A stretch of 64,000 bases of DNA from positions 1 to 64,000 of the forward strand of contig NZ_RQJX01000004.1 in the NCBI RefSeq assembly GCF_003850045.1, written 5' to 3'. Of the stretch, positions 24,697 to 53,499 are shown piece after piece. Position 1 is the first letter of the stretch; each line of letters starts with the position of its first letter. The translations under genes and the position numbers were made by a program. The DNA is from Aeromicrobium camelliae (GTDB taxonomy: Bacteria; Actinomycetota; Actinomycetes; Propionibacteriales; Nocardioidaceae). The notes beneath the pieces are model-generated. The model searched no databases. It was given only the letters and a program-made list of their open reading frames with translations, and was not told the origin of the DNA.

Positions 24697-26376
<1,680 letters not shown>

Positions 26377-32047: not shown

Positions 32048-32061
32048 GGGTCTACCTTCCC

Positions 32062-33213
32062 TCACCGTCGCTGGTCGAACTTGCGGCCCAGCAACTCCGA
32101 GACGATCCGGATGCGCTGCATCGTCGGCGTGCCGCCGGCGATCGCCCAGCCGTGAGCGTCGCGGTGCAGGCGCTCGATGCCGTACTCCTCGGTGTAGCCG
32201 TTGCCGCCGTGCAGCTGCATCGCGATGTCGGTGACGCGCTTGGCCATCTCGTTCGCGGTGCACTTGGCCAGCGAGACCTCATAGGAGTCCGGCAGGCCGA
32301 CGCCGGCGGTCGCGGCGGCGCGGTCGCGCAGCAGTCGGGCGGCCTCGACCTGCAGCGCCATGTCGGCGAGCAGCACCTGGACGCTCTGGAACTCCACAAG
32401 CGGCTTGCCGAACTGCTCGCGCTCCTGGACGTACTTGATCGTCTTGTCCAGCGCGGCCTGGCCGATCGCGATGCTCATCGTCGTGTTGCCGAGGCGCTCG
32501 ACCGAGAAGACCCCGAACAGCTTCGAGAAGTCGCCCGCCGGCACCACGACGTTCTCCTGCGGCACGCTCACGTTGTCGAAGTAGATGTCGGCCGAGGGAA
32601 TGCCGCGGAAGCCCATGAGGCGCTCGCCGGCGCCGAAGCTCAGGCCGGGCGTGTCCTTCTCGACCAGGATCGCACCGATGCCCTTCGAGCCCGGTGCGTC
32701 CGAGAGGCGGCAGTAGACGAGGTACTGATCGGCCTCACCGCCGTTGGAGATCCACCGCTTGGTGCCGTTGATGACGTACCGTTGGCCCTCGGGCTTGGCC
32801 GCCGTGATCATGTCGGTGGCAGCCGAGCCCGCGTCGGGCTCGGAGATGGCGACCGCCATCGTCTTGGCTCCGCTGACGATGTCGGGAAGCCAGCGCTGCT
32901 TCTGCTCGTGGGTGCCCAGGTGCGAGATCACCTGAGCCGGGCCGGTGTTGGCCTCGAAAATCTGGAACGCCGCGGGGCGGCACACCTTGCCGAACTCCTC
33001 GACCACGGCGAGCGCCTGGGCGAGCGGCGCCCCGGAGCCGCCGTACTCCTCGGGGTGCGCGATGCCGAGAAACCCCAGCGCCCCCAGTTCCATCCGCTGT
33101 TCGCGCGAGATGGGCTTGCGCTGAACGTCGAGCTCCTCGGCGATGGGCTCGTACCGCTCACGAGCCACTTGCGCAGCCAGTGCGCGGATCTCTGCCAGAT
33201 CATCGTGCGCCAC
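32062..33213 (-). CDS. acyl-CoA dehydrogenase
   Basis: A 383-residue acyl-CoA dehydrogenase with AISEPDAGSAATD, VINGTKRWISNGGEAD, EREQFGKPLVEFQ and HGGNGYTEEYGIERLHRDA. The C-terminal IAGGTPTMQR has Gly in place of the short-chain catalytic Glu. GTG at 33213 is preferred because AGGAGG lies 10 bases upstream; GTG at 33222 abuts that site. It is first in its operon, driven by a strong promoter at 33241-33269 and divergent from the thiolase. Confidence 0.92.
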   Translation of the reverse strand: MAHDDLAEIRALAAQVARERYEPIAEELDVQRKPISREQRMELGALGFLGIAHPEEYGGSGAPLAQALAVVEEFGKVCRPAAFQIFEANTGPAQVISHLGTHEQKQRWLPDIVSGAKTMAVAISEPDAGSAATDMITAAKPEGQRYVINGTKRWISNGGEADQYLVYCRLSDAPGSKGIGAILVEKDTPGLSFGAGERLMGFRGIPSADIYFDNVSVPQENVVVPAGDFSKLFGVFSVERLGNTTMSIAIGQAALDKTIKYVQEREQFGKPLVEFQSVQVLLADMALQVEAARLLRDRAAATAGVGLPDSYEVSLAKCTANEMAKRVTDIAMQLHGGNGYTEEYGIERLHRDAHGWAIAGGTPTMQRIRIVSELLGRKFDQRR

Positions 33214-33240
33214 GACGATCACCTCCTCATGTGGTTAATC

Positions 33241-33269
33241 ATTATCCTAGATTGTGTGACGTAGGTCAA
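33241..33269 (-). promoter_or_regulatory. promoter of acyl-CoA dehydrogenase operon with CTAG element
   Basis: On the minus strand: -35 TTGACC, 17-base spacer, -10 GATAAT, close to the sigma-70 consensus. The spacer contains GTCACACAATCTAG, near-identical to GTCACCCAAATCTAG in the TRAP operon promoter at 58186-58214. Confidence 0.7.
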
Positions 33270-33286
33270 CTCCACCACCCCGGCGG

Positions 33287-33315
33287 TTGGACGCCCCGGA
33301 CGAAATCATGATAAT
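33287..33315 (+). promoter_or_regulatory. promoter of thiolase operon, leaderless transcript likely
   Basis: -35 TTGGAC, 17-base spacer, -10 GATAAT, then only eight bases to the thiolase ATG at 33324. With no Shine-Dalgarno sequence, transcription probably starts at or next to the ATG. Confidence 0.65.
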
Positions 33316-33323
33316 GGTTAGCT

Positions 33324-34520
33324 ATGTCACTCCACCCACGCGACACCGTCATCGTCGATGCCGTCCGCACCGCGAGCGGCAAGGGCCGCAGCGGGGGCAG
33401 CCTCGCGGAGGTCCACCCGGTGGACCTGCTGGCACAGACCTTCCAGGCGCTCCTGGGCCGCAGCCCCGCGCTCGATCCCGCCGAGGTCGACGACGTCATC
33501 GTCGGTTGCGTCTCCCAGGTCGGTGAGCAGTCCGCGACCCCGGGCCGCATGGCCTGGCTCGGCGCCGGGTTCCCGGCCCACGTCCCCGCCACCACCATCG
33601 ACCGCAAGTGCGGATCGGGGCAGCAGGCCGTCCACTTCGGTGCCCAGGGGATCGCCGCCGGGAGCTACGACGTCGTGGTCGCCGGCGGCGTGGAGTCGAT
33701 GAGCCGCGTGGTCATGGGCTCCGCCCGGATGGGTGCCGACCCCTACGGATCGCTGGTGGCGGAGCGCTTCGCCCCCGGCCTCGTCTCCCAGGGGGTCGCC
33801 GCCGAACTGGTCGCCGAACGCTGGAAGCTCGATCGCGGCGCCCTCGACGGACTGGCGGTCGAGTCGCATCGCCGCGCCGCTGCCGCGCTCGAGGGCGGGC
33901 AGTTCAGTCGCGAGACGATCCCCGTGTCGACTCCGGCCGGTCAGGTCGACCGCGACGAGACCGTGCGGCCCGGCAGCAGCATCGAGAAGCTCGCGACGCT
34001 CCCGGGTGTCTTCCGCACCGACGAGCTGGCCGACCGCTTCCCGGGGGTGGGCTGGAACGTGACCGCCGGCAACTCCTCCCAGATCACCGACGGCGCGAGC
34101 GCCCTGCTGCTCATGAGCGCCGAGCGCGCCGCGGCCCTGGACCTGACCCCGCGCGCCCGCATCCACACCATGGCCGTCGTGGGCGACGACCCGCTGCTGA
34201 TGCTGACCGCGCCCATCCCCGCGACCCAGCGGGTGCTCGAGCGCTCGGGACTGTCCCTCGACGCGATCGACCACGTCGAGCTCAACGAGGCCTTCGCGTC
34301 CGTCCCGCTCGCGTGGATGGCCGAGTTCCCCCAGGTCGATCCCGCCCGGGTCAACCCCCGCGGCGGCGCGATCGCGCTGGGCCACCCGCTCGGTGCCTCC
34401 GGCGCGCGGCTCATGACCACGATGCTGCACGCCCTGGAGGACACCGGCGGCCGGTTCGGCCTGCAGCTCATGTGCGAGGCCGGCGGCATGGCCAACGCCA
34501 CCATCATCGAGCGCCTCTGA
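33324..34520 (+). CDS. acetyl-CoA C-acyltransferase (thiolase)
   Basis: A 398-residue degradative thiolase. The acyl-accepting Cys is C96 in DRKCGSGQQAV, the His is in IALGHPLGASGARL, and the second Cys in LQLMCEAGGMANA. It carries out the last thiolytic step of beta-oxidation. It heads a three-gene plus-strand unit with an SDR and an enoyl-CoA hydratase, which together make a complete hydratase-dehydrogenase-thiolase set. The leader is very short (see the promoter at 33287-33315). Confidence 0.95.
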   Translation: MSLHPRDTVIVDAVRTASGKGRSGGSLAEVHPVDLLAQTFQALLGRSPALDPAEVDDVIVGCVSQVGEQSATPGRMAWLGAGFPAHVPATTIDRKCGSGQQAVHFGAQGIAAGSYDVVVAGGVESMSRVVMGSARMGADPYGSLVAERFAPGLVSQGVAAELVAERWKLDRGALDGLAVESHRRAAAALEGGQFSRETIPVSTPAGQVDRDETVRPGSSIEKLATLPGVFRTDELADRFPGVGWNVTAGNSSQITDGASALLLMSAERAAALDLTPRARIHTMAVVGDDPLLMLTAPIPATQRVLERSGLSLDAIDHVELNEAFASVPLAWMAEFPQVDPARVNPRGGAIALGHPLGASGARLMTTMLHALEDTGGRFGLQLMCEAGGMANATIIERL

Positions 34521-34554
34521 GGCGCCGCCACCACCCAGAAGGAGGATGCCCCCT

Positions 34555-35316
34555 GTGGACGTCTCACACGGTTCAGCGCTCGTCACCGGAGGAGCGTCGG
34601 GCCTCGGCGCCGCGACCGCGCGGGCGCTCGCCGCACGCGGAGCGCACGTCGTCGTGCTCGACCTGAACGAGGAGCTCGGGCGGATCGTCGCCGACGAGAT
34701 CGGCGGCACCTTCGCCCGTGCCGATGTCACCGACACCGCCGCGGTCGACGCCGCTCTCGACGCCGCCGTCTCCCACGCCCCGCTGCGCGCGGTGGTGCAC
34801 TGCGCCGGCAAGGGCGGCACCGTCCGTGTCGTCGAGCGCGACGGCGAGCCCGGGTCACTCGAGACCTACGAGCAGCTCATCCGGCTGAACCTCGTCGGCA
34901 CCTTCAACGTCCTGCGGCTGTCCGCGGCGCGCATGGCGCGCCAAGACCTCGTCGAGGACGAGGAGCGCGGCGTCGTCGTGCTGACCGCCTCCGTCGCGGC
35001 GTACGAGGGTCAGATCGGCCAGATCCCCTACGCCTCCGCCAAGGCCGGTGTCGTCGGCATGACCCTCGTGGCCGCCCGGGACCTGGCCAGCAAGGCCATC
35101 CGGGTCGCCACGATCGCACCGGGGACGTTCGACACCCCGATCCTCGCCCGCTTCGGCCAGGAGGTGCGCGACAAGCTCGCCGCCCAGACGCCGCACCCGC
35201 GCCGGCTGGGCCGGCCGGAGGAGTACGCCAGCACGGCGCTGCACATCATCGAGAACCCCATGATCAACGGCGAGACCATTCGCCTGGACGGAGCGATCAG
35301 GATGGCCCCGAAGTGA
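34555..35316 (+). CDS. SDR, 3-hydroxyacyl-CoA dehydrogenase (HSD10-like)
   Basis: A 253-residue SDR with TGGASGLG, VLDLNEE (NAD type), LTASVAAYEG, and YASAK. The stretch ARDLASKAIRVATIAPGTFDTPIL and its placing with thiolase and enoyl-CoA hydratase match the type II 3-hydroxyacyl-CoA dehydrogenase (HSD17B10-like) group. GTG at 34555 is preferred, with AAGGAGG nine bases upstream; the ATG at 34546 directly abuts that site. Its stop overlaps the hydratase start by 4 bp (GTGA). Confidence 0.88.
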   Translation: MDVSHGSALVTGGASGLGAATARALAARGAHVVVLDLNEELGRIVADEIGGTFARADVTDTAAVDAALDAAVSHAPLRAVVHCAGKGGTVRVVERDGEPGSLETYEQLIRLNLVGTFNVLRLSAARMARQDLVEDEERGVVVLTASVAAYEGQIGQIPYASAKAGVVGMTLVAARDLASKAIRVATIAPGTFDTPILARFGQEVRDKLAAQTPHPRRLGRPEEYASTALHIIENPMINGETIRLDGAIRMAPK

Positions 35317-36095
35317 CCGCCGCACCGAACTCGGCCCCCGAGCTCCACGTCGAGGAGCGGGGCCGCGTCCTCGTGCTGACGATGGACCGCCCGCAGGCCC
35401 GCAACGCGATGTCGATGACCATGGCGCACCAGATCGCCGAGGCGCTCGAGGAGTTCGATCGCCGCGCCGACCTGAGCGTCGCCGTCATCACCGGCGGGGG
35501 CGGCACCTTCTGCGCCGGGATGGACCTCAAGGGGTTCGCCCGCGGCGAACGCCCCGTCGTCGAGGGCCGCGGGTTCGCCGGCATCGTCAAGCGCCCCCCG
35601 GCCAAGCCGATCATCGCCGCCGTCGAGGGGTACGCCCTGGCCGGCGGGTTCGAGATCGTCCTGTCGTGTGATCTCGTCGTCGCCTCCCGCGAGGCGACCT
35701 TCGGCCTCCCGGAGGTCAAGCGCGGCCTCACGGCGGCGGCCGGCGGCCTGCTGCGCCTGCAGCACCGCGTGCCCTACCACCTCGCGATGGAGCTCGTGCT
35801 GACCGGGCGCATGTGGCCGGCGACCGAGGCCCACGAGGCAGGGCTGGTCAGCCGCCTGGCCGACGCGGGCGGCGCTCTCGATGCCGCGCTCGAGCTGGCC
35901 GAGCAGATCGCCGAGAACGCTCCCCTCGCCCTGGCCGCCTCCAAGCGGGTGCTCGTGGAGTCCGTCGACTGGCCGCTCGCGGAGAAGTTCGACCGCCAAG
36001 AGGCGATCGTCAATCCCGTGCGCGAGTCCGAGGACGCCAAGGAGGGCGCCCGGGCCTTCGTCGAGAAGCGCGCACCCCAGTGGTCCGGGCGGTAG
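35313..36095 (+). CDS. enoyl-CoA hydratase (crotonase family)
   Basis: A 260-residue crotonase. Oxyanion-hole segments are GGGTFCAGMDLKGF and EGYALAGGFEIVLSCDLVVA, and EATFGLPEVKRGL follows with Glu in the hydratase position. It starts at GTG 35313, coupled to the SDR, and ends before the terminator hairpin at 36110. Together with the upstream genes it completes beta-oxidation. Confidence 0.92.
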   Translation: MTAAPNSAPELHVEERGRVLVLTMDRPQARNAMSMTMAHQIAEALEEFDRRADLSVAVITGGGGTFCAGMDLKGFARGERPVVEGRGFAGIVKRPPAKPIIAAVEGYALAGGFEIVLSCDLVVASREATFGLPEVKRGLTAAAGGLLRLQHRVPYHLAMELVLTGRMWPATEAHEAGLVSRLADAGGALDAALELAEQIAENAPLALAASKRVLVESVDWPLAEKFDRQEAIVNPVRESEDAKEGARAFVEKRAPQWSGR

Positions 36096-38853: not shown

Positions 38854-39735
38854 TCATTCGCCACGCACCAGGCGGGCGTGAGCGAGCCAGTCACGCGCCT
38901 TGTCGGCGTGCGCGAGGTCGACGTGCTGGCCGCGGTAACGCACGGCGCCGTGGCCCCGCGCGGCGGCCTCCTCCACCGCGGCGACGAGTCCTTCGTGATA
39001 GGCGACCTCGTCGTCGCTGGGGGTGTAGATCTCGTGGATCACGGGCACGTGGGTGGGGTGGATGGCGATCTGCCCGCGGAAGCCGAGCTGCAGGCCGTAG
39101 TCGGCGAACTCGCGCAGGCCCTCCAGGTCGCCGAGGTCCTCCCACAGCCCGGTGAGCGCGTGCAGCCCGTACTGGCGGCAGGCCAGCAGGATCCGGCTGC
39201 GCAGGTAGAGCGTCTCGCTGCCCTCGCGGGACTGCCGGTAGCCCACCGCGCGGGCGATGTCGGCGTGCGCGGACGTCGGCCCGATCATCGCGCCGACCCG
39301 CTCGGAGGCGCCGGCGATCTCCTGACAGTTGGTGATCGCGTCGACCATCTCGACCGGGACGATCATCTCCAGGCCGTCGGCGCCATTGCGCGCCTCGAAC
39401 CAGTCCAGCAGCGACTCCCAGCGGATGACGTCTCGCGCATCGCGGATCTTGGGGGCGAACACGCCGTCGAGCTCGGGGCCGACGACGGCCTCGAGGTCGG
39501 CGCCGGCCAGACGGGTGTCGAGCGCGTTGGGCCGCACGAACAGACCCACCCGCTCACTGCGCGACCGCAGGTCCCGCAGGGTCTCGCGAGCGGTCTGCCG
39601 GCTCGCCTCCTTCAGATCGGCGGGCACCGAGTCCTCGAGATCGATGACGATGCAGTCCGCCCCGCTCGCCAGGGCCTTGGCGGCCCAGTCCGGCTTGTGA
39701 GCAGGGGCGAACAGCAGGGAGCGGTACGGGTGCAC
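38854..39735 (-). CDS. HpcH/HpaI (CitE-like) acyl-CoA lyase
   Basis: A 293-residue CitE-family C-C lyase. It starts RSLLFAPAHKPDWAAKA, then DCIVIDLEDSVPADLKEAAR-like sequence with the metal Asp/Glu, VRPNALDT, PKIRDARDV, PVEMVDAI with Glu, and QIAIHPTHVPVIHE. Related enzymes cleave malyl-, citramalyl- or methylmalyl-CoA. The start is GTG at 39735 with AGAGGAG upstream. It lies between an acyl-CoA ligase and the LLM oxidoreductase. A matching MaoC hydratase is at 45552-46019 in another operon. Confidence 0.88.
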   Translation of the reverse strand: MHPYRSLLFAPAHKPDWAAKALASGADCIVIDLEDSVPADLKEASRQTARETLRDLRSRSERVGLFVRPNALDTRLAGADLEAVVGPELDGVFAPKIRDARDVIRWESLLDWFEARNGADGLEMIVPVEMVDAITNCQEIAGASERVGAMIGPTSAHADIARAVGYRQSREGSETLYLRSRILLACRQYGLHALTGLWEDLGDLEGLREFADYGLQLGFRGQIAIHPTHVPVIHEIYTPSDDEVAYHEGLVAAVEEAAARGHGAVRYRGQHVDLAHADKARDWLAHARLVRGE

Positions 39736-39747
39736 GTCTGTTCTCCT

Positions 39748-41403
39748 CTACCGGGCGGACTGTTCGCGGTCGTGCGTGTCGTCGGTGATGCCCAGCTCGC
39801 GCAGCTTCGCCTTCTGCACCCGCTGGGACGGGGTCTTGGGCAGCTCGTCGACGAACCGGATGTACCGGGGGATCGCGAACGAGGGGATGCGCTTCTCGAA
39901 GTGCGCCCACAGCTCCTGCGCGGTGACCTCCTCGCGCGCGATCACGTAGGCCATCACCTCGTCCTCACCGGCCTCGGAGGAGGCGGGGACCGCGATCACG
40001 GCGGTCTCGACCACGGCCGGGTGGCTCAGCACGGCGGTCTCGATCTCATAGGAGGAGATGTTCTCGCCGCGGCGGCGCAGTGCGTCCTTGAAGCGGTCGA
40101 CGAAGTAGAACCAGCCCTCGGCGTCGCGCTTGAGGGCGTCACCGGTGTGGAACCAGAGGTTGCGCCAGGCCTCCACCGTCTTCTCGGGCATGTTGAAGTA
40201 GCCCATCGAGCAGATGAAGGGGACCTTCGGGCGGATGACCAGCTCGCCCACCTCGCCGACCGCGACCTCCTCGTCGGTGTCGGGGTCGACGAGCGCGACA
40301 TCGAACCACTCGTCGGCGGCGAGCCCGGCCGCGCCGGCGGGACGGTCCTCGCCGTACGGGGAGATGATCGGCGCCGAGGTCTCGGTCAGGCCGAAGACCT
40401 CCACGAACGCCTCGATGCCGTAGCGCTGCTTGAGCGGCTCGACGAGGGTCGCGGCGGTGGGCGCGGCGAACACGCAACGCAGCGGGTTGTCGGCGTCGTC
40501 GGGCCGCGGGTCCTGCTTGGCGATGAAGTCCATCATGACGCCGATGAAGTTGGTGACCGTCACCTGGCTCTCGCGGATCTGGTCGATCCAGCGACTGGCC
40601 GAGAAGCGGCTGCGGGTGACGAATCGCGCGCCGGCCACGAGGGTCGGGTAGGCGGCCATGAACTGCGCGTTGCCGTGGAAGAGCGGCGTCACCGACATCC
40701 ACGTGTCGAGGCTGCTCAGGCGCACGAGGGAGACGCACTCGTCGGCGAAGAAGTACATCTGGGCATGCGGCATGGCGACGCCCTTGCTCGGACCCGTGGT
40801 GCCGGAGGTGAAGAGCACCGAGGCGAGATCCTGCGGGCGCACGTCGGGAAGCTCGATCTCGTCGCTCACGCGGGAGTCCTCGTCGAGGTTCTCCCAGGGC
40901 TCGGCCCGCCATCCGGCGGCGCGCAGGGCGGCGATCGCCTCGTCGCGTCGGCCGGTGTCGATCACCCAGAACGTGCCGATGGTCGAGGCGGCCTCGGCCA
41001 CGTCGACGAACCGGGAGGCGAAGACGTCGTCGATGACGGCGTGCGTCGCCTCGACCGTCCGGACCTGGTGCGCGAGGAAGTCGTGCTCGTACGCGGTGTT
41101 GATCGGCACCTCGACGAGCCCGGCGACCGCCGTCCCGACCCAGGTGCGCACGAACTGCGAGGAGTTGGCGGCCACGATGACGACGCGGTCGCCCGGCGCT
41201 GCCCCGGCGTCGAGCAGCGTCCGCCCCACCCGCTCGGCGGAGGAGAGCATCTCGGCGAAGGTCCAACGCCGGCCCTCTTCGGGCGCGTCGAGCCAGACAG
41301 CACCGGGCCGCTCGGCCGCCTGATGCCGCAGGACGGTGGGCAACGCCCAGTCGCCACGCTCGACGAAGGTGGGCTTGAGGTCTCGGTAGTAGCGGAAGCT
41401 CAT
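39748..41403 (-). CDS. AMP-forming acyl-CoA ligase
   Basis: A 551-residue ANL-family acyl-CoA synthetase. Core motifs are FTSGTTGPSKG (P-loop), VFGLTETS, WFHTGDALKRD, and DRFKDALRRRGENISSYEIE at the hinge. The terminal segment LPKTPSQRVQKAKLRELG has the catalytic Lys region. The start is ATG at 41403, overlapping the crotonase stop by 4 bp. It makes the CoA ester of a carboxylic acid taken up or produced in the pathway; which acid is unknown. Confidence 0.93.
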   Translation of the reverse strand: MSFRYYRDLKPTFVERGDWALPTVLRHQAAERPGAVWLDAPEEGRRWTFAEMLSSAERVGRTLLDAGAAPGDRVVIVAANSSQFVRTWVGTAVAGLVEVPINTAYEHDFLAHQVRTVEATHAVIDDVFASRFVDVAEAASTIGTFWVIDTGRRDEAIAALRAAGWRAEPWENLDEDSRVSDEIELPDVRPQDLASVLFTSGTTGPSKGVAMPHAQMYFFADECVSLVRLSSLDTWMSVTPLFHGNAQFMAAYPTLVAGARFVTRSRFSASRWIDQIRESQVTVTNFIGVMMDFIAKQDPRPDDADNPLRCVFAAPTAATLVEPLKQRYGIEAFVEVFGLTETSAPIISPYGEDRPAGAAGLAADEWFDVALVDPDTDEEVAVGEVGELVIRPKVPFICSMGYFNMPEKTVEAWRNLWFHTGDALKRDAEGWFYFVDRFKDALRRRGENISSYEIETAVLSHPAVVETAVIAVPASSEAGEDEVMAYVIAREEVTAQELWAHFEKRIPSFAIPRYIRFVDELPKTPSQRVQKAKLRELGITDDTHDREQSAR

Positions 41404-42185
41404 CGCTCGTCCTCTCGCGCGCTGCGGGCCCCGCGGAAGTCCGGGCGCCGCTTCTCCAGGAAGGCGTTGGCGCCTTCGATCATGTCCTCGCTGCCGATGG
41501 CCTGGATCAGCATCCCGAGGCCGGACGACATGTTGTCCTTCGACAGGTTCCACCACTGGTTCGCGCTGATCTTGGCGATCTCCAGATAGCGGGGGCTCAG
41601 CTGGTGGATCTCGGCGAGCCAGCGCTCGACGGCGGCCTCGAGGCCGTCATCGGGGACGACCTCGTTGACCAGGCCCATCGCCAGCGCCTGCTCCGCGGAG
41701 TACCGACGGCACAGCATGGCCATCTCCCGCGCGCGCTTCTCCCCGATCTGCACCGACATGAGGTTCGTGGCGCCGAGCACGGGAGCCGAACCGACCTTGG
41801 GACCGGTCTGGCCGAAGGTCGAACGCTGGGTCGCGATGGCGAAGTCGCAGGCGACGACCAGCTCGTTGCCGCCACCGGCGGCCGCGCCGTCGACGGCCGC
41901 GATCACCGGCCGCGGGCACGCACGCAGGGCGTCGACGAGCCGCAGCGACGTCGTGAAGAGTTGGCGCAGGCCCTCGGGGTCGGGCGTGCCGAGGTTGTTG
42001 AGGGCGCCGCCGGCGCAGAAGGCGCCCCCGGCCCCGGTGAGCACCACGGCCTCGGCATCCGCGGCGTCTTCGACCGCCGCGATCATCGCGCGCGCCATGT
42101 CCAGGTCATAGGCGTTGCGCCGCTCCGGCCGGTTGATCGTGATCCAGACCGCCCCGTCACGTCGTTCGACTTCGACCCCGCTCAC
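41400..42185 (-). CDS. crotonase, MenB/BadI-like
   Basis: A 261-residue crotonase. The stretch TFGQTGPKVGSAPVLGATNL, followed by GEKRAREMAMLCRRYSAEQALAMGLVNEVVP and FLEKRRPDFRG, follows the MenB (naphthoyl-CoA synthase) and BadI (2-ketocyclohexanecarboxyl-CoA hydrolase) pattern rather than ordinary hydratases. However, the catalytic Asp those enzymes have after GS (GSFDGGYG / GSVDPGYG) is replaced by hydrophobic or Pro residues. A ring-opening hydrolase or related C-C reaction is my best guess. GTG at 42185 has GGAGGAG upstream. It leads the five-gene ligase-lyase-LLM-aldehyde dehydrogenase unit. Confidence 0.82.
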   Translation of the reverse strand: MSGVEVERRDGAVWITINRPERRNAYDLDMARAMIAAVEDAADAEAVVLTGAGGAFCAGGALNNLGTPDPEGLRQLFTTSLRLVDALRACPRPVIAAVDGAAAGGGNELVVACDFAIATQRSTFGQTGPKVGSAPVLGATNLMSVQIGEKRAREMAMLCRRYSAEQALAMGLVNEVVPDDGLEAAVERWLAEIHQLSPRYLEIAKISANQWWNLSKDNMSSGLGMLIQAIGSEDMIEGANAFLEKRRPDFRGARSAREDER

Positions 42186-45551: not shown

Positions 45552-46019
45552 TCAGGACATCACTTCGTGGGCCGGGCGCTTCATCATGAGCCCGGCGCGT
45601 TTGCAGACCATCACGAGCACGTCGTCCTGGTTGTAGCCGCGGTGCTCGAACCACACGATCCCGGAGTCATCGCGACTCGTGGACAGCCGCTTGTCGAGGA
45701 TCGTGGTCTCGCCGCGCAGCGTGTCACCGGCGAAGACCGGTGCCGGGAATCTGACGTCCTCGTAGCCGAGATTCCCCAGTGTCGTTCCCATCGTGAGCTC
45801 CGGGACGTGAAAGGCACCGATCAGCGCCACGGTGAAGAGGCTGTTGACCAGCGGCCTGCCGTGGATGGTCGTCTTCGCGTATTCGGCGTCGAGGTGAATC
45901 GGGGCGACGTTCATCGTCAGCGACGTGAACAGCACGTTGTCCATCTCGGTGATCGTCCGCCGGAAGGCGTGCTCGTACGTCTTGCCGATCTCGAACTCTT
46001 CGAAGTACAGGCCGCGCAT
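45552..46019 (-). CDS. MaoC-family acyl-CoA hydratase
   Basis: A 155-residue single hot-dog hydratase. The site region reads MNVAPIHLDAEYA, with His and an Asn where many have Asp, then HGRPLVNSLFT, LGYEDVRFPAPVFAGDTL, and CKRAGLMMKRP. This wording resembles itaconyl- or mesaconyl-CoA-type hydratases, which pair with CitE-like lyases. It starts at ATG 46019 with AGGAGC upstream, overlapping the acyl-CoA dehydrogenase stop. The CitE-like gene at 38854-39735 could be its partner. Confidence 0.87.
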   Translation of the reverse strand: MRGLYFEEFEIGKTYEHAFRRTITEMDNVLFTSLTMNVAPIHLDAEYAKTTIHGRPLVNSLFTVALIGAFHVPELTMGTTLGNLGYEDVRFPAPVFAGDTLRGETTILDKRLSTSRDDSGIVWFEHRGYNQDDVLVMVCKRAGLMMKRPAHEVMS

Positions 46020-47182
46020 CAGTAGCTCCTGGGAAGACCGAGCACGTGCTCGGCCACGTAGTTGAGGACCATCTCTTGACTGATCGGCGCGATCCGCATC
46101 AGCCGCGCCTCCCGGAAGTAGCGTTCGACGTGGAACTCCTTGCTGTACCCCATCCCGCCGTGCACCTGGAGGGCGACGTCGGCGGCGTAGTAGCCCGCCT
46201 CCGCGCACAGCCACTTGGCGTAGTTGGCCTCCGCCGCACAGGGCTCCTGTCGGTCGACGAGCCAGGTCGCCTTCTGCAGCACCGCATCGGCCGCCTCGAT
46301 GCGGATCTTCGCCTCGGCCAACTGGAAGGACAGGCCCTGGTTGGCGCCGATCGGGCGACCGAAGACCACACGGTCCTTCGCGTACTGGGTGCCGCGGCGC
46401 AGGGCGGCCTCGCCGATGCCGAGCATGGCGTTGGCGGCGACGACGCGCTCGGCGTTGAGGCCGGTCAGGATGACCTTGAAGCCCTTGCCGACCTCGCCGA
46501 CGACGTCCTCGTCGGCGACGAAGAGCTCGTCGATGAACAGCTCGTTGCTGTCGACCGAGTTGCGCCCCATCTTCGGGATGGCGCGCACCGTGACCTTCTC
46601 GCGATCCAGGGGCGCGAAGAAGACCGTGAGTCCGTCGGTCTTCTTCGCGCACTCGCTCTTGGGCGTGGTGCGGGCGAGCAGCAGCATGCGCTCGGCACGC
46701 TGGGCATTGGAGATCCAGACCTTCTTGCCCGAGACGAGCCACCCCCCGTCGACCTTCGTGGCGAACGTGGAGATGTTGGTGGTGTCAGTGCCGGCATCCG
46801 GCTCGGTGACGGCGAAGGAGATCTGCAGATCCCCCGCCGGCACGCGCGGCAGGAAACGCCGCTTCAGCTCCTCGCTGCCGTGGTGGAGGATGGGCTCGAA
46901 GCCGAAGATCCCGATATGGACGGCCGAGCATCCCCCCATCCCGGCGCCTGACGCAGCGATCTCCCGCTCGACGATGGCGGCCTCGGTGACACCGAGGCCG
47001 CCTCCCCCGTACTGCTCGGGGATCGTCAACCCCAGCCAGCCGCCCTCCGCGACGGCCTGAAAGAACTCACCGGGGAACTCATGGCGTTCATCGTGCTCGG
47101 CCCAGTACTCGTCGGGGAACCGCGAACACAGGGCGCGAACGGCGCTTCGGATGTCGTCGTGAACTGGGCTGGTCTCGTACAT
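46019..47182 (-). CDS. acyl-CoA dehydrogenase
   Basis: A 387-residue acyl-CoA dehydrogenase with AVTEPDAGTDTTN, LVSGKKVWISNAQRAE, VVFGRPIGANQGLSF, and HGGMGYSKEFHVERYFREARL. The end reads IAPISQEMV, without the Glu of short-chain members. It precedes the MaoC hydratase, a natural dehydrogenation-hydration pair. The ATG at 47182 follows the alcohol dehydrogenase gene by nine bases. Confidence 0.92.
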   Translation of the reverse strand: MYETSPVHDDIRSAVRALCSRFPDEYWAEHDERHEFPGEFFQAVAEGGWLGLTIPEQYGGGGLGVTEAAIVEREIAASGAGMGGCSAVHIGIFGFEPILHHGSEELKRRFLPRVPAGDLQISFAVTEPDAGTDTTNISTFATKVDGGWLVSGKKVWISNAQRAERMLLLARTTPKSECAKKTDGLTVFFAPLDREKVTVRAIPKMGRNSVDSNELFIDELFVADEDVVGEVGKGFKVILTGLNAERVVAANAMLGIGEAALRRGTQYAKDRVVFGRPIGANQGLSFQLAEAKIRIEAADAVLQKATWLVDRQEPCAAEANYAKWLCAEAGYYAADVALQVHGGMGYSKEFHVERYFREARLMRIAPISQEMVLNYVAEHVLGLPRSY

Positions 47183-47191
47183 CGGGTGTGT

Positions 47192-48241
47192 TCACCTTCC
47201 TCGAGCTGGATCATCGGCGCGCATCCGCACGACCGCCCGGCCGCGGATGTCGCCCTCCGCCAACCGTCGGTACGCCTCAGGCGTCTGTTCGAAGGGAAGC
47301 TCCTCCACCACCGCTTCCACCTCGCCCGAGCGCGCGAGCTCGAGCACCTGGTGGAGCTCTGGCCGGGTTCCCCAGAAGGGCAGGTCGGTGCGTGCCCCCA
47401 ACGGCAGGGCGTGCATGCCGACCGCCAACCGATCGGCACCGACCCCCACGATCGAGACGACTCCGTCGCGGGCCAGGACGGCTCGGGCGAGCTCCAGCGT
47501 CGAGTGGTGGGCGACGAAGTCGAGCACCACGTCGGCAAGGCGGCCGTGGGTGAGGTCCCGGATCTCCTCGGCCGTGCCTTCACCACCGAGCACCTGGTCG
47601 GCGCCCTGCCGCCGGGCCAGCGTGCGGGCGTCCTCCTCCCGGTCGACCGCGATCACCGTGGCACCCCTGAGCTTGGCCAGCCGCACCGCGAGGTGACCGA
47701 GGCCGCCGACACCGATCACCACGACGACGAGGCCGAGAGGCGGTCGGCCGATCATGGCGAACGCACGGTTCAGCGCATGCAGCGCCGTCAGGCCGGCATC
47801 GGTCATGACCGCCGCCTGAGCCGGGGGCAGACCCGCCGCCGGGACGAGATGGGACGCCGGGACGGCGACGAACTCCGCGAGTGCGCCGTCGCTGCCCAAT
47901 CCCAAGGGAAAGGAGGTCGCGCGGCCGTGGCAGTAGTTCTCGGCGCCCGCCGAGCAACGCGAGCACCGACCGCATCCCCGTGGCCCGTAGCCGACGACAG
48001 GATCGCCGACCTGGACCTCACCAGCGCCGGCTCCGACCTCGACCACGACGCCGGCGAGCTCGTGACCCAGAACCACGGGCAGGCTGAAGGGATGCTGCCC
48101 CGGCGCCCGGGACACCAGGGTCAGATCAGAATGGCACAGACCTGCGGCCGAGGTCTGCACGATCGCGTGCCCTGGCGCTGCCTGCGGGTCGGGAACGTCA
48201 CGAAAACCGCCTCCCTCCCGGCCGAGTACGAAGGCCCTCAC
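47192..48241 (-). CDS. zinc-dependent alcohol dehydrogenase (MDR)
   Basis: A 349-residue medium-chain dehydrogenase. Catalytic zinc ligands are the Cys in AAGLCHSD and LGHELAG; structural Cys residues are in RGCGRCSRCSAGAENYC. The cofactor motif is VIGVGGLGHLAVRLA with Asp in IAVDREED. The start is GTG at 48241, overlapping the DUF35 stop. It belongs to the long operon. It could oxidise an alcohol or reduce an aldehyde formed by retro-aldol cleavage immediately upstream in the pathway. Confidence 0.9.
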   Translation of the reverse strand: MRAFVLGREGGGFRDVPDPQAAPGHAIVQTSAAGLCHSDLTLVSRAPGQHPFSLPVVLGHELAGVVVEVGAGAGEVQVGDPVVGYGPRGCGRCSRCSAGAENYCHGRATSFPLGLGSDGALAEFVAVPASHLVPAAGLPPAQAAVMTDAGLTALHALNRAFAMIGRPPLGLVVVVIGVGGLGHLAVRLAKLRGATVIAVDREEDARTLARRQGADQVLGGEGTAEEIRDLTHGRLADVVLDFVAHHSTLELARAVLARDGVVSIVGVGADRLAVGMHALPLGARTDLPFWGTRPELHQVLELARSGEVEAVVEELPFEQTPEAYRRLAEGDIRGRAVVRMRADDPARGR

Positions 48242-48642
48242 ACCACGTGACCGACCGGCAGGTGCTCGCTACCCTCAGGCTGGACGAATCCGATCCGGAC
48301 CGCCCGGCCGACCGCGAGGCCTGCCGGGTCGCACTCGGGGAGCTGGACCGAGAGCCACGGGCCCTCGTCCAGTTCGACGATGCCGATGACGGTGTCGGGC
48401 GTGACGACGTCGTCGCGCCGCCGGCCCGGCTTCACGGTCCAGGTGACGAGGTGGCCCGTCCCTGCCGCCTCCCGCCACTCCAGATCGGCTGCCTGAGTCG
48501 TGGAGCAGACCAGCGCCGCGGGCTCGGACCAGGTGTCCTGGCTCGGCGAATAGCGCAGCAGCAGCCTGCCCTCGGCGGCCGCCTCGAAGAACGGCGCGGA
48601 GAAGTCGTCACGGACGACTGCGGCGAGTGTCACGGTGGTCAC
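48238..48642 (-). CDS. DUF35 OB-fold protein without zinc-ribbon cysteines
   Basis: A 134-residue DUF35 (OB-fold) protein, beginning at GTG 48642 and overlapping the thiolase-fold gene by 4 bp. DUF35 proteins bind CoA substrates and partner thiolase-fold enzymes; the DUF35 part of actinobacterial ChsH2 supports the Ltp2 aldolase. The usual N-terminal zinc ribbon (two CxxC pairs) is missing: the region RYSPSQDTWSEPAALVC has one Cys only. The OB-fold part (TWTVKPGRR to VRIGFVQPEG) is intact. It probably forms a complex with the protein at 48639-49799. Confidence 0.85.
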   Translation of the reverse strand: MTTVTLAAVVRDDFSAPFFEAAAEGRLLLRYSPSQDTWSEPAALVCSTTQAADLEWREAAGTGHLVTWTVKPGRRRDDVVTPDTVIGIVELDEGPWLSVQLPECDPAGLAVGRAVRIGFVQPEGSEHLPVGHVV

Positions 48643-49799
48643 CGTCCCTTCCGGTGCGGGCTGAGGATGAGCGTGGAGTGGAAGTCCAGGACGCCGCCGT
48701 TGCCCGAGACCATCACCACGTCGTGCCGGTCGACCTGGCGCTCGCCGGCCTGCCCACGCGCCTGAATCACGGCCTCCGACAGCGGCGTCATCCCCCACAT
48801 GTAGAACGAGGAGAGCTCGCCGCCTCCGGTGTTGGTGGGATGGGATCCGCCGGGGGCGAGAGCCCCGCTGGCCACGAACTCGCCGCCTTCGCCCTTGGCG
48901 CAGAAGCCGTAGTCCTCGAGCGTGACGAGGGTCGTGAAGGTGAAGCAGTCGTAGAGCTGGCGAAGATCCACCTCGTCGACGCTCACGCCGGCCATCTTGA
49001 GGGCGTCGGGTCCGGACTTCGCGGCGCCGGTCACGAGACCGAACTGGCTGTCGCGGTGCTGCACGTAGCCCGGATGCGCCTGGCCCCAGCCCCACACGTG
49101 GACGGGAGGCTGACGCAGCGTCGCGGCGCGGTCGGCGCTCGTGACGATGATCGCGACGGCACCGTTGCTCACCAGGCAGCAGTCGAGCAGCCGCAACGGG
49201 TCGGCGATCATCCGGGAGGCCTGATGGTCCTCGAGCGTGAGCGGATCGCGCATCTGGGCCGCGGGGTTCATCGCCGCCCACTGGCGCGCCGCCACCGCGA
49301 CCGCGCCGAACTGCTCGCTGGTGGTGCCGTAGGTCTCCATGTGCCGGCGGGCCGCCACGGCGTACCGCTCGGGTGCCGCCTTGAGACCCGCGGCGAAGGG
49401 CAGCGATCCCACGCCCACCATGGCACGCGCCTGGCCCGGATAGGCGTCCGAGGAGCGCTTGCCCTCCTTGAGCGGGGCGTCGGCGTACACGCAGGCGACG
49501 ACGTCGGCCATGCCGGCCTCGATCGCCATCGCGGCGTACTGGACCATCTGGCCGGCCGACGAGCCGAAGCCCTGGATCGTGGCCAGGACGCGGGTGTCGC
49601 GCATCTGCAGCGCCGACTGCAGCCGCAGATCGGTGTCGTTCTTGACCCCCGGGTTGACGTAGAGGCCGTCGATGTCCGCGAGCGAGAGACCCGCGTCCTC
49701 GGCCGCCCGGCTGATCGCCTCGACCGCGAACTGCGTCGCGGTGCGTCCGTAGACCTTGCCCATCTCGGTCATCCCGAGTCCCACGATGGCCGCGCTCAT
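48639..49799 (-). CDS. thiolase-fold protein, Ltp2-like retro-aldolase
   Basis: A 386-residue SCP2-type thiolase-fold protein. The position of the thiolase Cys is GFGSSAG, with no Cys, and the usual GHPxGA His motif is replaced by GGGELSSFYMWG, with Tyr. YDCFTF remains. Loss of the Cys and His with Tyr in the active site is what is seen in steroid side-chain aldolases (Ltp2), which do retro-aldol cleavage rather than thiolysis. It overlaps both the DUF35 gene and the MaoC gene by 4 bp. The start is ATG at 49799. The substrate here is unknown. Confidence 0.85.
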   Translation of the reverse strand: MSAAIVGLGMTEMGKVYGRTATQFAVEAISRAAEDAGLSLADIDGLYVNPGVKNDTDLRLQSALQMRDTRVLATIQGFGSSAGQMVQYAAMAIEAGMADVVACVYADAPLKEGKRSSDAYPGQARAMVGVGSLPFAAGLKAAPERYAVAARRHMETYGTTSEQFGAVAVAARQWAAMNPAAQMRDPLTLEDHQASRMIADPLRLLDCCLVSNGAVAIIVTSADRAATLRQPPVHVWGWGQAHPGYVQHRDSQFGLVTGAAKSGPDALKMAGVSVDEVDLRQLYDCFTFTTLVTLEDYGFCAKGEGGEFVASGALAPGGSHPTNTGGGELSSFYMWGMTPLSEAVIQARGQAGERQVDRHDVVMVSGNGGVLDFHSTLILSPHRKGR

Positions 49800-50254
49800 C
49801 GCTCGTCCTCCCCACCGGTGGGCAGGACGACCTCGACGACGCCGGGGCCGACGGTGACGCCGGAGGAGTTCTCGCATCGCACCGTGACCTCGACGACGCC
49901 GTCCTGGCCGTCCCTACGGGTCGCGGTGACCTCGCCGAGGACGCGCATCGTGTCGCCCACATAGTTGAAGGAGCGCATCCGGAAGCCGCGGATCGCGCGG
50001 AGCCGGGCGCCCGGGCCCGCCCAGTCACGGACGAGCCTCTCCCACGAGCTCATGAGGAACGACGTGTTCGCGTACATCTCCTCCGCTCCCGTGGACCGGG
50101 CGTACTCACTGTTGTGGTGGATCGAGTTGAAGTCGCGGTTGCTCCCTGCCGCCATCACGAGGCGGTAGACGGTCAGCGGCAGACGCACCTCGGGAAGCTG
50201 GTCGCCGACCGCGACCTCCTCGAAGACGCGCGTGGCCGCCTGCGCGGTGGTCAC
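49796..50254 (-). CDS. MaoC-like hydratase subunit (ChsH1-like)
   Basis: A 152-residue hot-dog protein carrying the hydratase-2 motif: RDFNSIHHNSEYARSTG, with the catalytic Asp and His. GTG at 50254 overlaps the stop of the neighbouring MaoC-like gene. It and its neighbour probably form a heteromeric hydratase, like ChsH1-ChsH2 of actinobacterial side-chain degradation (family knowledge). This is the catalytic half. Confidence 0.87.
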   Translation of the reverse strand: MTTAQAATRVFEEVAVGDQLPEVRLPLTVYRLVMAAGSNRDFNSIHHNSEYARSTGAEEMYANTSFLMSSWERLVRDWAGPGARLRAIRGFRMRSFNYVGDTMRVLGEVTATRRDGQDGVVEVTVRCENSSGVTVGPGVVEVVLPTGGEDER

Positions 50255-50841
50255 GACTGTTCTCCCTTCTGGTGGGGGACATAGGCGTAGGTGCCGATGC
50301 GGATCAGGCCGACCACGTCACCGCGGTCGCTGACGATCTCGCTCTCCCAGGTCATGAAGGCGCCCCGGCCGACGCCCGTCTCCTTCGGGGTGCACGCCAC
50401 GAGCCGGCGGCCCCGGCGGCCGATCCGCTCGCCGGCGACGACCTCGCGGTGGAAGTCGACCTCGATGTCCGTCCCGAAGAACCCGGTGGTCTTCGGGCCG
50501 ATCGGCATGTCGGCGTTGTTGATCGCCGTGTGGACGGGCTGGGCGTCGCGGTCGGCGGAATCGAACAACGTCTCCCCGGGCCGCCACGCGGCCGGGATCG
50601 TCCACGCGATGACGCCGGTGTAGGGCATCGTGACGTCCTCGAAGCCCGCGGCCCGCGCGACCTCGGGATCGGTGTGCAGCGCACAGTCGAACTCGAGCGG
50701 CTCCAGATAGCGCCGGATCGCGCCGCGTTCCACCGGATCGCCGCCCCACGTGATCTCCCCGTCGGCGAAATCACGGCCGACGGCGTCGACCACCGGCTGC
50801 CACGCGGCCTTCCATTCCGTCTCGGTCTCCGTCGCGGTCAT
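50251..50841 (-). CDS. MaoC-like N-terminal hot-dog subunit (ChsH2-like)
   Basis: A 196-residue protein of the MaoC N-terminal (FAS1 dehydratase-region) type. It has a hot-dog fold with TDPEVARAAGFEDVTMPYTGVIAWTIP and FFGTDIEVDFHREVVAGERI, but no Asp/His hydratase motif. It would be the structural or substrate-binding half partnering 49796-50254. In ChsH2 this half is fused to DUF35; here the DUF35 domain is a separate gene two positions downstream. It overlaps the CoA-transferase stop by 4 bp. Confidence 0.85.
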   Translation of the reverse strand: MTATETETEWKAAWQPVVDAVGRDFADGEITWGGDPVERGAIRRYLEPLEFDCALHTDPEVARAAGFEDVTMPYTGVIAWTIPAAWRPGETLFDSADRDAQPVHTAINNADMPIGPKTTGFFGTDIEVDFHREVVAGERIGRRGRRLVACTPKETGVGRGAFMTWESEIVSDRGDVVGLIRIGTYAYVPHQKGEQS

Positions 50842-53291
50842 CGCAGGATTCCTTTCGTCTCCAGTCGCTCGATCGTCGCCTCGTCATAGCCCAGGACGGA
50901 CTCCAGGACGCGGCGGTTGTGCTGGCCGAGGGTCGGTGCGCACGAACGCGGGCCGCCCGGGGTGGCATCGAGACGGACCCGAGCACCCTCGACCACCGTC
51001 ATGCCGTGCAGTGGATGGGCCAGCTCCACCAGGTGCTGGCGGTGCACCACCTGGGCGTCGCGGGGATAGTCCTCGGGGCGCAGCGCGAGATAGGCGGGGA
51101 TCCCCGCCTCCTGGAGCCGGCGCTCCACCAGCTCGCCGTCGCGCTCTGTGGTCCACGCGGCGATGGCGGCGTCGAGCTCCGTGGTCGCCGCACGACGTCC
51201 GGCCGCCGTCGCGAGATCCTCCCGGACGAGGTCCGGCCGGCCCAGCACCGCGACGAGCCGCTGCCACTGCAGGTCGTCGGTCACCGCGATCGCGACGAAC
51301 CGCTCGCCGTGCTCGTCGGGCGACACCGGATAGACGCCGTGGGGAGCCCACCGTGCGTCGTCGTTGCCGCGGCGCTCGGCCACGGTGCCGTCGAACCCGA
51401 AGTGCGCGATCTGCGGCGCGAGGAAGTACACCCCGCTCTCGACCTGGGACACGTCGATGTAGCAGCCGTCCCCGGTGCGGGCCCGGTGCCGCAGCGCGGC
51501 GAGCAGTGCGACCAGCGCCGTGCGGGGACCCAGGTAGTCGGTGTACGGCCCGAACGGGCCCATCGGCAGGCGATCGGACCAGCCCACGAGGTGCTGGAAG
51601 CCGCTCAGCGACGAGCCCACGTTGCCGAAGCCGGCGAGCTTGGACCAGGGACCATGCTGACCCGCGATGGAACTGCTGAGCATGACGAGCCCGGGATTGA
51701 CGGCGCGCAGCGCCTCCTCGTCGAGTCCCCACTTGGCCAGCTGGCCGGGCGAGAACGACTCGATCACCACGTCGGCCCAGCGGGCCAGGTCACGCACGAC
51801 CTGCTGGCCCTCCGACGTCGTGAGATCGAGTGTCATCCCGAGCTTGCCGGCGTTGCAGTTGCCGAACAGCGCCGACCCCTCACGGTCGGGGCGGCCGTCG
51901 TGGAACGGTTGCATCATCCGCGCGGTCTCGACCCGCACCCCGGATTCCACTCGCACCACGGTCGCCCCGAAGTCGGCCAGCGTGCGCCCGATGAGCGGAC
52001 CGGCCACGACCCAGGAAAGGTCCAGGACCTTCAGTCCCTCCAGCGGGAGCGTACGGCCGCGCGACGGCACGGCGGACTGTGGCACGACGGTCGCGAGCCA
52101 GTCGCGCGCGACCTCCTCGTGGTGCTCCCCCACCTTGGGTGCCCGGGCCCGCACGTGCGGGCCCGGCGCGCCGCGCACGTGCGCGAACACGGAGGGGACG
52201 GGCACCGCCACGCCCTCGATGTCGAGGTCCGCGAAGAACCCGCGCTGCGCCAGGTGCTCACTCGAGGCCACGTCGGCGACGTCGAAGATCGCCATGGACA
52301 GCAGGCGGCGGCGCAGCGCCTGCTCCACCACCTCCGCCTTGGTCTTCGTCGCGAGGAAGGCACGCACCGCCGCGCGCGCGTCGTCGAGGTCGGCGAGATC
52401 CAGCGTCCCCTCGGCCACGAGCGACGGGACCTCCCGCCAGTCCCACGCCGCGATGCGGTCGTCGACGGCTCCCTCCTCGTGCATCCAAGCGAAGAGCCTG
52501 TTCGTGAAGGCGCCGGCGGCGGCACCGATCGACAGGTGCAGCTCGATCATGCCGTCACGACAGTGCCACTTCTTGAGGCTGTTGGGGGTCGCTGCCCCGC
52601 TCCCGGACTGGTCGGCGCGGGCGGTCGGCTGCTGCTGCCACTCGGGGTTGTCGTCGCCCACGGCGTGCGCGAGGATGCGCGCGAGCGTGGCCTGCCCGAC
52701 CGAGCTCTGGGCGGAGACGTCGACGAACTGTCCTCGGCCGCTGCGATCGCGTTCGAGCAGGGCGAGCAGGACTCCCGTCGCCGCGTCCGCGGCCGCATGC
52801 AGGAAGGCCTGGGGGACGCTGATCCGCAGCGGCGGGCGATCACCGTCACGATGGGGAGCGAGCGGACCGCCCGCCGCCCAGACCGTGAGATCGCTCGCCG
52901 CCAGCCGCGAACGCGGTCCGTCCCATCCGTAGGCCGTGATGGCCGCCACCACGGCCTGGGGTGCGAGGGACAGCACCTCGTCGGGCGTCATGCCCCAGCG
53001 CTCGAGCTCGGCGTGGTCCCACGAGGTGACGACGGCGTCGGCCCGGCGCACCAGGTCCTGGAGCAGTTCTCGGTCGCGCTCGGGATCGAGCGCGATGCCT
53101 CGCTTGCCGGCCGCGAACGTCTGCCACGTGAACGAGATGCCGGTGCTCGGGTCGACCGGGTCGGCCGTGCGGGCCGGCGACCCGCTCAGCGGCTCGACCT
53201 GCACGACATCGGCCCCGAGATCGGCGAGCAGCCGACCGCAGAGCAGACCCCGTTCGTCGGTCAGGTCGAGGACGCGCAGACCGTCAAGCAT
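50838..53291 (-). CDS. double-domain CaiB/BaiF CoA-transferase
   Basis: An 817-residue protein made of two family III CoA-transferase units in tandem. The first (1 to about 390) begins LDGLRVLDLTDERGLLCGRLLADLGADVVQVE; the second (about 410-817) begins LEGLKVLDLSWVVAGPLIGRTLADFGATVVRVE. The second unit keeps GPYTDYLGPRTALVALLAAL, with a candidate nucleophilic Asp. Standard members are about 400 residues and form interlocked dimers, so this is a covalent dimer. The start is ATG at 53291, inside the ferredoxin 3' end (8-bp overlap), with no strong ribosome site, so translation is probably coupled. Confidence 0.9.
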   Translation of the reverse strand: MLDGLRVLDLTDERGLLCGRLLADLGADVVQVEPLSGSPARTADPVDPSTGISFTWQTFAAGKRGIALDPERDRELLQDLVRRADAVVTSWDHAELERWGMTPDEVLSLAPQAVVAAITAYGWDGPRSRLAASDLTVWAAGGPLAPHRDGDRPPLRISVPQAFLHAAADAATGVLLALLERDRSGRGQFVDVSAQSSVGQATLARILAHAVGDDNPEWQQQPTARADQSGSGAATPNSLKKWHCRDGMIELHLSIGAAAGAFTNRLFAWMHEEGAVDDRIAAWDWREVPSLVAEGTLDLADLDDARAAVRAFLATKTKAEVVEQALRRRLLSMAIFDVADVASSEHLAQRGFFADLDIEGVAVPVPSVFAHVRGAPGPHVRARAPKVGEHHEEVARDWLATVVPQSAVPSRGRTLPLEGLKVLDLSWVVAGPLIGRTLADFGATVVRVESGVRVETARMMQPFHDGRPDREGSALFGNCNAGKLGMTLDLTTSEGQQVVRDLARWADVVIESFSPGQLAKWGLDEEALRAVNPGLVMLSSSIAGQHGPWSKLAGFGNVGSSLSGFQHLVGWSDRLPMGPFGPYTDYLGPRTALVALLAALRHRARTGDGCYIDVSQVESGVYFLAPQIAHFGFDGTVAERRGNDDARWAPHGVYPVSPDEHGERFVAIAVTDDLQWQRLVAVLGRPDLVREDLATAAGRRAATTELDAAIAAWTTERDGELVERRLQEAGIPAYLALRPEDYPRDAQVVHRQHLVELAHPLHGMTVVEGARVRLDATPGGPRSCAPTLGQHNRRVLESVLGYDEATIERLETKGILR

Positions 53292-53499
53292 CGACGGGAG
53301 CGGCCGAACTGACGGCGATCGCGCCTTCGGGGCAGGCGTCGACGGCTTCCTGCGCCTGGTCCAGCAGGTCCGCCGGCACCTCCCAGCGCTGTCCTCGCTC
53401 GGCGACGAACCCCTCGTCGTCATCGGTCAGCAGGTCGGGGGCGACGGCGTAGCAGCGCCCATGACCCATGCACTTGGTCGCGTCGATCTCGATGAACAT
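53284..53499 (-). CDS. 3Fe-4S type ferredoxin for P450
   Basis: A 71-residue single-cluster ferredoxin of the P450-associated type. Ligands are KCMGHGRC (the second Cys position is His) and a later Cys in VDACPEGAI. It lies three bases after the P450 gene and overlaps the CoA-transferase start. It should reduce the P450, taking electrons from the reductase at 60437-61660 or the FprB-type protein at 22534-24186. Confidence 0.93.
   Translation of the reverse strand: MFIEIDATKCMGHGRCYAVAPDLLTDDDEGFVAERGQRWEVPADLLDQAQEAVDACPEGAIAVSSAAPVDA

Follow-up and report, generated by a model that had tools for sequence, protein, structure and literature searches.

What reaction is carried out by a thiolase-like protein that has lost the residues of thiolysis and is encoded beside two MaoC proteins and a DUF35 protein? 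The question was raised by four minus-strand genes (50841-48238) in the first 64,000 nucleotides of contig NZ_RQJX01000004.1 (assembly GCF_003850045.1), the stretch analysed here as the window. It belongs to the 3.06-Mb genome of Aeromicrobium camelliae, whose closest relatives with the same four genes are other Aeromicrobium. In this study, we believe that these genes, called the module below, probably encode a heteromeric hydratase and a retro-aldolase made of the thiolase-fold and DUF35 proteins, whose ketone product would go to an enzyme of the phenylacetone monooxygenase (PAMO) type. What is new here is that the module belongs to an island of about 30 genes in 17 other actinobacterial genomes, always together with a PAMO orthologue.

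Gene organization and conservation of the module

The module encodes, in the direction of transcription, a MaoC-N protein, a MaoC protein, a thiolase-fold protein and a DUF35 protein. A sequence-only reading of the window had described four overlapping genes of these types, and both the Pfam matches and the ATGA/GTGA junctions confirmed it. The gene set, the overlaps, the active-site residues, their conservation and the linkage to PAMO were read directly from the sequence. Every junction is a 4-base overlap (ATGA at 50838-50841, GTGA at 50251-50254, ATGA at 49796-49799, GTGA at 48639-48642 and GTGA at 48238-48241). The chain of overlaps extends upstream to a double CaiB-type CoA-transferase and downstream to an alcohol dehydrogenase. 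The DUF35 gene most likely starts at the GTG at 48642, which overlaps the stop of the thiolase-fold gene.

The thiolase-fold protein was used to fetch 80 actinobacterial loci. The order P450, double CaiB, MaoC-N, MaoC, thiolase-fold, DUF35 was found in 17 of the 80, with a short-chain dehydrogenase/reductase (SDR) inserted in Streptomyces spongiae. These loci come from Aeromicrobium, Nocardioides, Pimelobacter, Actinomadura, Thermocatellispora, Thermobifida and Streptomyces spongiae, and their thiolase-fold proteins are 71-93% identical. Because 17 loci of other genomes keep the same gene order, the module is not a chance arrangement.

Linkage of the module to PAMO

A PAMO orthologue was present in all 17 module genomes. 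It was 54-84% identical and lay 2.3-29.4 kb from the thiolase-fold gene; for L006 and L010, the shared contig was taken from coordinates only. The Baeyer-Villiger monooxygenase (BVMO) of the window shows the 12-residue FxGxxxHxxxW[P/D] fingerprint in the alignment. Within Aeromicrobium, the module genomes carry the orthologue at 84% identity, and no other genome exceeded 49%. Among 294 genomes of the order, the module occurred in 7 and the PAMO orthologue in 8, including all 7 module genomes (naive hypergeometric probability 2e-13, relatedness ignored). In Thermobifida fusca, a 14-kb contig carries the module and PAMO 6.4 kb apart; the beta-oxidation block lies on a different contig.

PAMO is known as an isolated biocatalyst. 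BVMOs in general are widely studied biocatalysts, but little is known of what they act on and do in the cell (PMC4498894). We found no paper that ties PAMO to a CoA-dependent aldolase pathway or gives it a physiological role, within an incomplete coverage of the literature. With a constant genomic partner that is expected to release a ketone, the role of PAMO in nature can be tested directly, and the orthologues of the thermophile T. fusca should suit the assay.

Active site and phylogeny of the thiolase-fold protein

The thiolase-fold protein matches Pfam Thiolase_C_1 and, slightly under the cut-off, Thiolase_N. Its active site was aligned with TcLtp2 (6ok1), CtSal (9myr) and a canonical thiolase (7yvy). 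The two residues that mark a true thiolase, the nucleophilic Cys and the His of HDxF, are replaced by Gly79 and Tyr283, in agreement with the earlier statement that both were lost and a Tyr was present. CtSal and TcLtp2 show the same two replacements, Gly for Cys and Tyr for His. The HDxF position reads Tyr283-Asp-Cys285-Phe (YDCF), and Tyr333 aligns with Tyr344 of Ltp2. G79, Y283, D284, C285 and Y333 were invariant across 42 aligned sequences. In the comparison with the active-site Tyr residues of Ltp2 that had been suggested earlier, Tyr283 and Tyr333 match Tyr294 and Tyr344, but the motif is YDCF and not YDHF, and the retained Cys285 had gone unmentioned.

The catalytic residues of TcLtp2 are Tyr294 and Tyr344; CtSal cannot do without Tyr302 and Cys304 and has Gln352 in place of the second Tyr (PMC12329534). 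Because Tyr283/Cys285 match the CtSal set and Tyr283/Tyr333 the TcLtp2 set, the predicted active site is composite, with a Sal-like Tyr-Asp-Cys motif and a Tyr equivalent to Ltp2 Tyr344. Cys285 may be accessory to catalysis, since the same position is Ala in IpfD of ibuprofen degradation and His in Ltp2.

The AlphaFold2 monomer model had a mean predicted local distance difference test (pLDDT) score of 89, and the best Foldseek matches were 4u4e, 6ok1 (template modelling score 0.88) and 9myr (0.86). The module proteins group together in a single clade of the tree, inside a larger clade with YDC plus the second Tyr (support 98/99). This larger clade neighbours Ltp2 (94/82) and stands apart from Sal; some branches, including that of Sal, are long, and the deeper branching order is uncertain. 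To the DUF35 aldolases known from Ltp2 and Sal, these proteins would add a non-steroid clade whose catalytic residues form a combination of their own.

Two observations concern relatives of this protein. PDB entry 4u4e (Sphaerobacter thermophilus) is titled thiolase, but it is probably a retro-aldolase-like enzyme because it aligns with YDSF and with Gly at the nucleophile position. The sister clade (about 60-67% identity) often has a crotonase-type enoyl-CoA hydratase gene upstream and no MaoC pair (L019, L021, L030, L037, L045, L046, L050, L055, L069, L081 and L082 among others), an apparent swap of the hydratase before the same aldolase and DUF35 genes.

Hydratase pair and DUF35 subunit

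The only PDB matches of the MaoC-N protein were 4w78 and 4wnb, the ChsH1/ChsH2 hydratase entries, and the best matches of the MaoC protein were the short catalytic chains of the same entries. The MaoC protein scored 23.4 bits against Pfam MaoC_dehydratas (cut-off 27). Its Asp41/His46 dyad sits in a DFNSIH motif and is found in all module loci. The MaoC-N protein has Phe51 at the catalytic Asp position (Phe or Leu across all module loci) and retains His56, where ChsH2 has Tyr. One MaoC protein thus carries Asp/His and the other lacks the full dyad. In the ChsH1/ChsH2 pair, the dyad is present only in ChsH1, and ChsH2 is altered to accommodate bulky rings (PMC11321319). Because the catalytic/degenerate pair matches ChsH1/ChsH2, the two proteins are predicted to form a heteromeric hydratase that acts on an enoyl-CoA with a bulky or branched chain.

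In 84 fetched loci, some of which overlap one another, the DUF35 gene lies immediately 3' of the thiolase-fold gene, an arrangement that is the rule in the clade. At an Aeromicrobium locus (L099:1471-3231), a zinc-ribbon DUF35 is naturally fused to the N-terminus of a thiolase-fold protein with YDGF. The adjacency in 84 loci and this fusion support the two proteins as predicted partners. The DUF35 gene is separate from MaoC-N in 17 of 17 other module genomes, as had been noticed in the window. The zinc-ribbon CxxC pairs are lost in the DUF35 proteins of all module loci, and many sister-clade proteins retain them. The window protein has 2 Cys and those of the other module loci 0-1, none in CxxC pairs. 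The monomer model (pLDDT 92) keeps the helix-plus-OB fold, with Foldseek matches to 9myr_B and 6ok1_B. At a steroid-type Ltp2 locus of another Aeromicrobium (L173:6551-7843), MaoC-N, DUF35 and a ChsH1-like MaoC form a single 430-residue open frame, the opposite of the separate genes of the module.

Proposed pathway and alternative explanations

The retro-aldolase reading and the parts list given earlier are well supported by the active-site residues, the place in the tree next to Ltp2, the Foldseek matches to 6ok1 and 9myr, and the degenerate/catalytic MaoC pair. We infer the reaction, the complex, the order of the steps and the delivery of the module product to PAMO as follows. The substrate would be activated with CoA and optionally dehydrogenated, and the 2-enoyl-CoA would be hydrated to a 3-hydroxyacyl-CoA. 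Tyr283 would take the proton of the hydroxyl, the bond between C-alpha and C-beta would break, and Tyr333 and/or Cys285 would protonate the enolate. The products would be acetyl-CoA or propionyl-CoA and a carbonyl compound; as the beta-carbon would be branched, this compound is most likely a ketone. The PAMO-type enzyme would convert the ketone to an ester or lactone, an esterase would open it, and the beta-oxidation genes would complete the breakdown.

The BVMO, the P450 and the enzymes of BadI-like and CitE type point to a branched or alicyclic acid as the likely substrate. Steroid rings are unlikely, since HsaA was not found in the own genome at E ≤ 1e-40. A second Ltp2/Sal-type protein was not found in the own genome either, and no steroid-ring genes were identified around the module. 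These negatives support the non-steroid context that the sequence-only reading had assumed. The cyclohexaneacetate pathway is associated with EC 4.1.3.35. It was attractive in combination with a BVMO, but no supporting sequence or paper was found within the material searched, and it is kept as a substrate idea only.

The same hydratase and retro-aldolase could also act on a substrate whose beta-carbon bears H. An aldehyde and acetyl-CoA or propionyl-CoA would then be released, the aldehyde would go to the SDR or aldehyde dehydrogenase (ALDH), and PAMO would act at another step on another ketone. CtSal with its YDC motif does release an aldehyde (PMC12329534), and the island has conserved genes for both ALDH and SDR. 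However, the second Tyr of Ltp2 and IpfD is present and the Sal-type Gln absent, Ltp2 and IpfD both act on a ring carbon, and the constant neighbour is a ketone monooxygenase. We consider this course unlikely.

Much less probable is that the thiolase-fold and DUF35 proteins together act as an atypical thiolase or acyltransferase, like those of BbsAB, PhlABC and the archaeal thiolase complex. The fold and the DUF35 partnership are the same, and 7pxp, 6esq and 5m3k were matched, but the similarity to Ltp2 and IpfD exceeds that to these entries, and the alignment showed no Cys at the nucleophile position and no HDxF His in the module clade or its sister clade. A thiolase of the benzoylsuccinyl-CoA type was rejected because the nucleophile is missing.

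The least probable explanation is a displaced steroid side-chain system with Ltp2/Sal function in a steroid degrader: the hydratase is ChsH1/ChsH2-like, several module genomes also carry HsaA and the PAMO orthologue resembles steroid monooxygenase 4ap3 (555.6 bits). Against it, the search gave no HsaA for the own genome, two other module-bearing Aeromicrobium, G069 and G074; the matches of T. fusca, G068 and G073 were all below the cut-off. In addition, true YDHF Ltp2 proteins are encoded by other Aeromicrobium, and at one such locus that was checked the genes are fused.

Several points weigh against a hydratase and retro-aldolase that feeds a ketone to PAMO. The structure predictions are of monomers. 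Co-localisation does not fix the order of the steps; PAMO could work at another point of the pathway. DUF35 may have taken on a different role when it lost its zinc ribbon. The eighth PAMO genome (G321) carries the lower island and PAMO on a contig that stops just at the expected start of the module, and the rest of that genome yielded no close module aldolase.

A bolder proposal, to which we give somewhat less than an even chance, is that the module and PAMO form one undescribed actinobacterial route, with a composite-site aldolase and a zinc-less DUF35. A beta-branched enoyl-CoA would be hydrated and then cleaved to an acyl-CoA and a ketone, the PAMO-type enzyme would insert oxygen beside the carbonyl, and the resulting ester would be hydrolysed. 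If true, it would give the natural role of phenylacetone monooxygenase.

Other genes of the island

Larger regions from 14 of the 17 module genomes were compared. The common island of about 30 genes corresponds to 18-60 kb of the window. It contains the PAMO-type BVMO, CaiB, a hormone-sensitive-lipase-type esterase, a FadR-type regulator, an amidohydrolase, acyl-CoA dehydrogenases, a thiolase, SDRs, an enoyl-CoA hydratase, an ALDH, an LLM oxidoreductase, CitE, a CoA ligase, a BadI-like crotonase and a TRAP transporter. The double CaiB-type CoA-transferase and the P450 upstream of the module were each present in 14/14 regions, and the zinc alcohol dehydrogenase in 5/14. The coordinates are collected in Table 1.

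Table 1. Genes of the module and of the surrounding island in the window
Feature	Position	Strand	Support
MaoC-N protein, 196 aa, presumed non-catalytic hydratase half (ChsH2 N-domain-like)	50251..50841	-	Pfam FAS1_DH_region
MaoC protein, 152 aa, presumed catalytic hydratase half (ChsH1-like)	49796..50254	-	PDB matches, Asp41/His46
Thiolase-fold protein, 386 aa, presumed retro-aldolase	48639..49799	-	PDB 4u4e, 6ok1 (Ltp2), 9myr (Sal); active-site alignment
DUF35 / OB_ChsH2_C protein, 134 aa, presumed retro-aldolase partner subunit	48238..48642	-	Pfam OB_ChsH2_C
PAMO orthologue, type I BVMO, presumed step after aldolase	24739..26376	+	789.5 bits to 1w4x, 62% identity to T. fusca gene
Double (tandem-domain) CaiB-type CoA-transferase, presumed substrate CoA activation	50838..53321	-	Pfam CoA_transf_3, two stretches; ATGA overlap with MaoC-N
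Cytochrome P450	53503..54702	-	Pfam p450; best PDB match CYP101J2
Zinc alcohol dehydrogenase, overlaps DUF35 gene (GTGA)	47192..48241	-	Pfam ADH_N / ADH_zinc_N
Acyl-CoA dehydrogenase of island	46019..47182	-	Pfam; 86-90% identical in several module genomes, 75% in T. fusca
Third MaoC protein (RipB/Ich-like)	45552..46025	-	Pfam; NCBIfam NF038241 139 bits, below cut-off
Second CaiB-type CoA-transferase, directly 3' of PAMO orthologue	26392..27603	+	NCBIfam CaiB-family; 67-90% identical in 12/14 regions, also T. fusca
Hormone-sensitive-lipase-type esterase, candidate Baeyer-Villiger ester/lactone hydrolase	27587..28519	+	Pfam Abhydrolase_3; NCBIfam LipP1 250.8 bits, below cut-off; 10/14 regions
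Beta-oxidation set: acyl-CoA dehydrogenase pair, thiolase, SDR, enoyl-CoA hydratase	30920..36095		Block in 12/14 regions; T. fusca, other contig
CitE-type lyase, AMP-forming CoA ligase, BadI-like crotonase	38854..42185	-	Block conserved in most island genomes

The RipB/Ich-like MaoC (45552-46025) and a RipC/CitE-like lyase (38854-39735), both below their family cut-offs, occur in the island; the pair hints that the lower pathway may pass through a methyl-branched intermediate of C5 type. A motif search for a ferredoxin gene that could serve the P450 found none. At 22534-24186, a ferredoxin-like N-terminus is fused to a pyridine-nucleotide-disulphide oxidoreductase, which is kept only in the Aeromicrobium islands. 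CYP222A1/FdR9 of T. fusca was considered as the P450 and reductase of the cluster and rejected; those genes are Tfu_1273-1275, and PAMO is Tfu_1490.

Comparison with characterised systems

By sequence identity, the closest characterised relative found is IpfD (49-50%), ahead of Ltp2 (36%) and Sal (33%). When plasmids were searched, a protein with 50.1% identity was found both on pIBU218 from Rhizorhabdus wittichii MPO218 and on a plasmid of Sphingopyxis granuli. On pIBU218, the order ipfABDEF encodes the dioxygenase alpha and beta subunits, IpfD, the OB-fold protein IpfE and a CoA ligase. In ibuprofen degradation, the retro-aldol release of propionyl-CoA is attributed to IpfD and IpfE and gives 4-isobutylcatechol (PMC9195938, PMC6063337). 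An ipf-like cluster with paaI is also present on plasmid pBN3 of Paraburkholderia aromaticivorans (L183:3697-10683); it comprises a dioxygenase, an aldolase 74% identical to IpfD, an OB-fold protein and a CoA ligase.

IpfD/IpfE and the module share a separate DUF35 directly downstream and without zinc Cys, Gly at the nucleophile position, the second Tyr and a non-steroid setting. The motif differs, being YDAF in IpfD and YDCF in the module protein. The ipf operon has a ring-hydroxylating dioxygenase, which supplies the beta-hydroxyl, and an acyl-CoA ligase; the module instead has the P450, CaiB and the MaoC pair, and the ipf locus contains neither a MaoC pair nor a P450 or PAMO. By this comparison, an unfused DUF35 and a non-steroid substrate are both already known, and their combination in an aldolase is not new because IpfD/IpfE has both. 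The sequence-only reading is thus supported in part: its parts list and retro-aldolase chemistry stand, but the weight that it gave to a split DUF35 within a system of the Ltp2 type was misplaced, and it missed the island and the PAMO-type monooxygenase.

The system of Ltp2 with ChsH1-ChsH2 (igr operon) shares the full parts list, the equivalents of Tyr294 and Tyr344, the absence of a nucleophilic Cys and a neighbouring clade. Ltp2 has YDHF (Tyr294/His296) where the module protein has YDCF. Its DUF35 is fused to MaoC-N in ChsH2 and carries four zinc Cys, whereas the module has a separate gene, has lost the zinc ribbon and lies in a non-steroid island. Sal-Shy of Comamonas testosteroni, which acts in bile acid degradation, shares the Tyr-Asp-Cys motif (Tyr302/Cys304) and the Gly at the nucleophile position. 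Sal has Gln352 at the position of module Tyr333 and belongs to a separate clade, and Shy is a single MaoC fused to DUF35, unlike the separate genes of the module.

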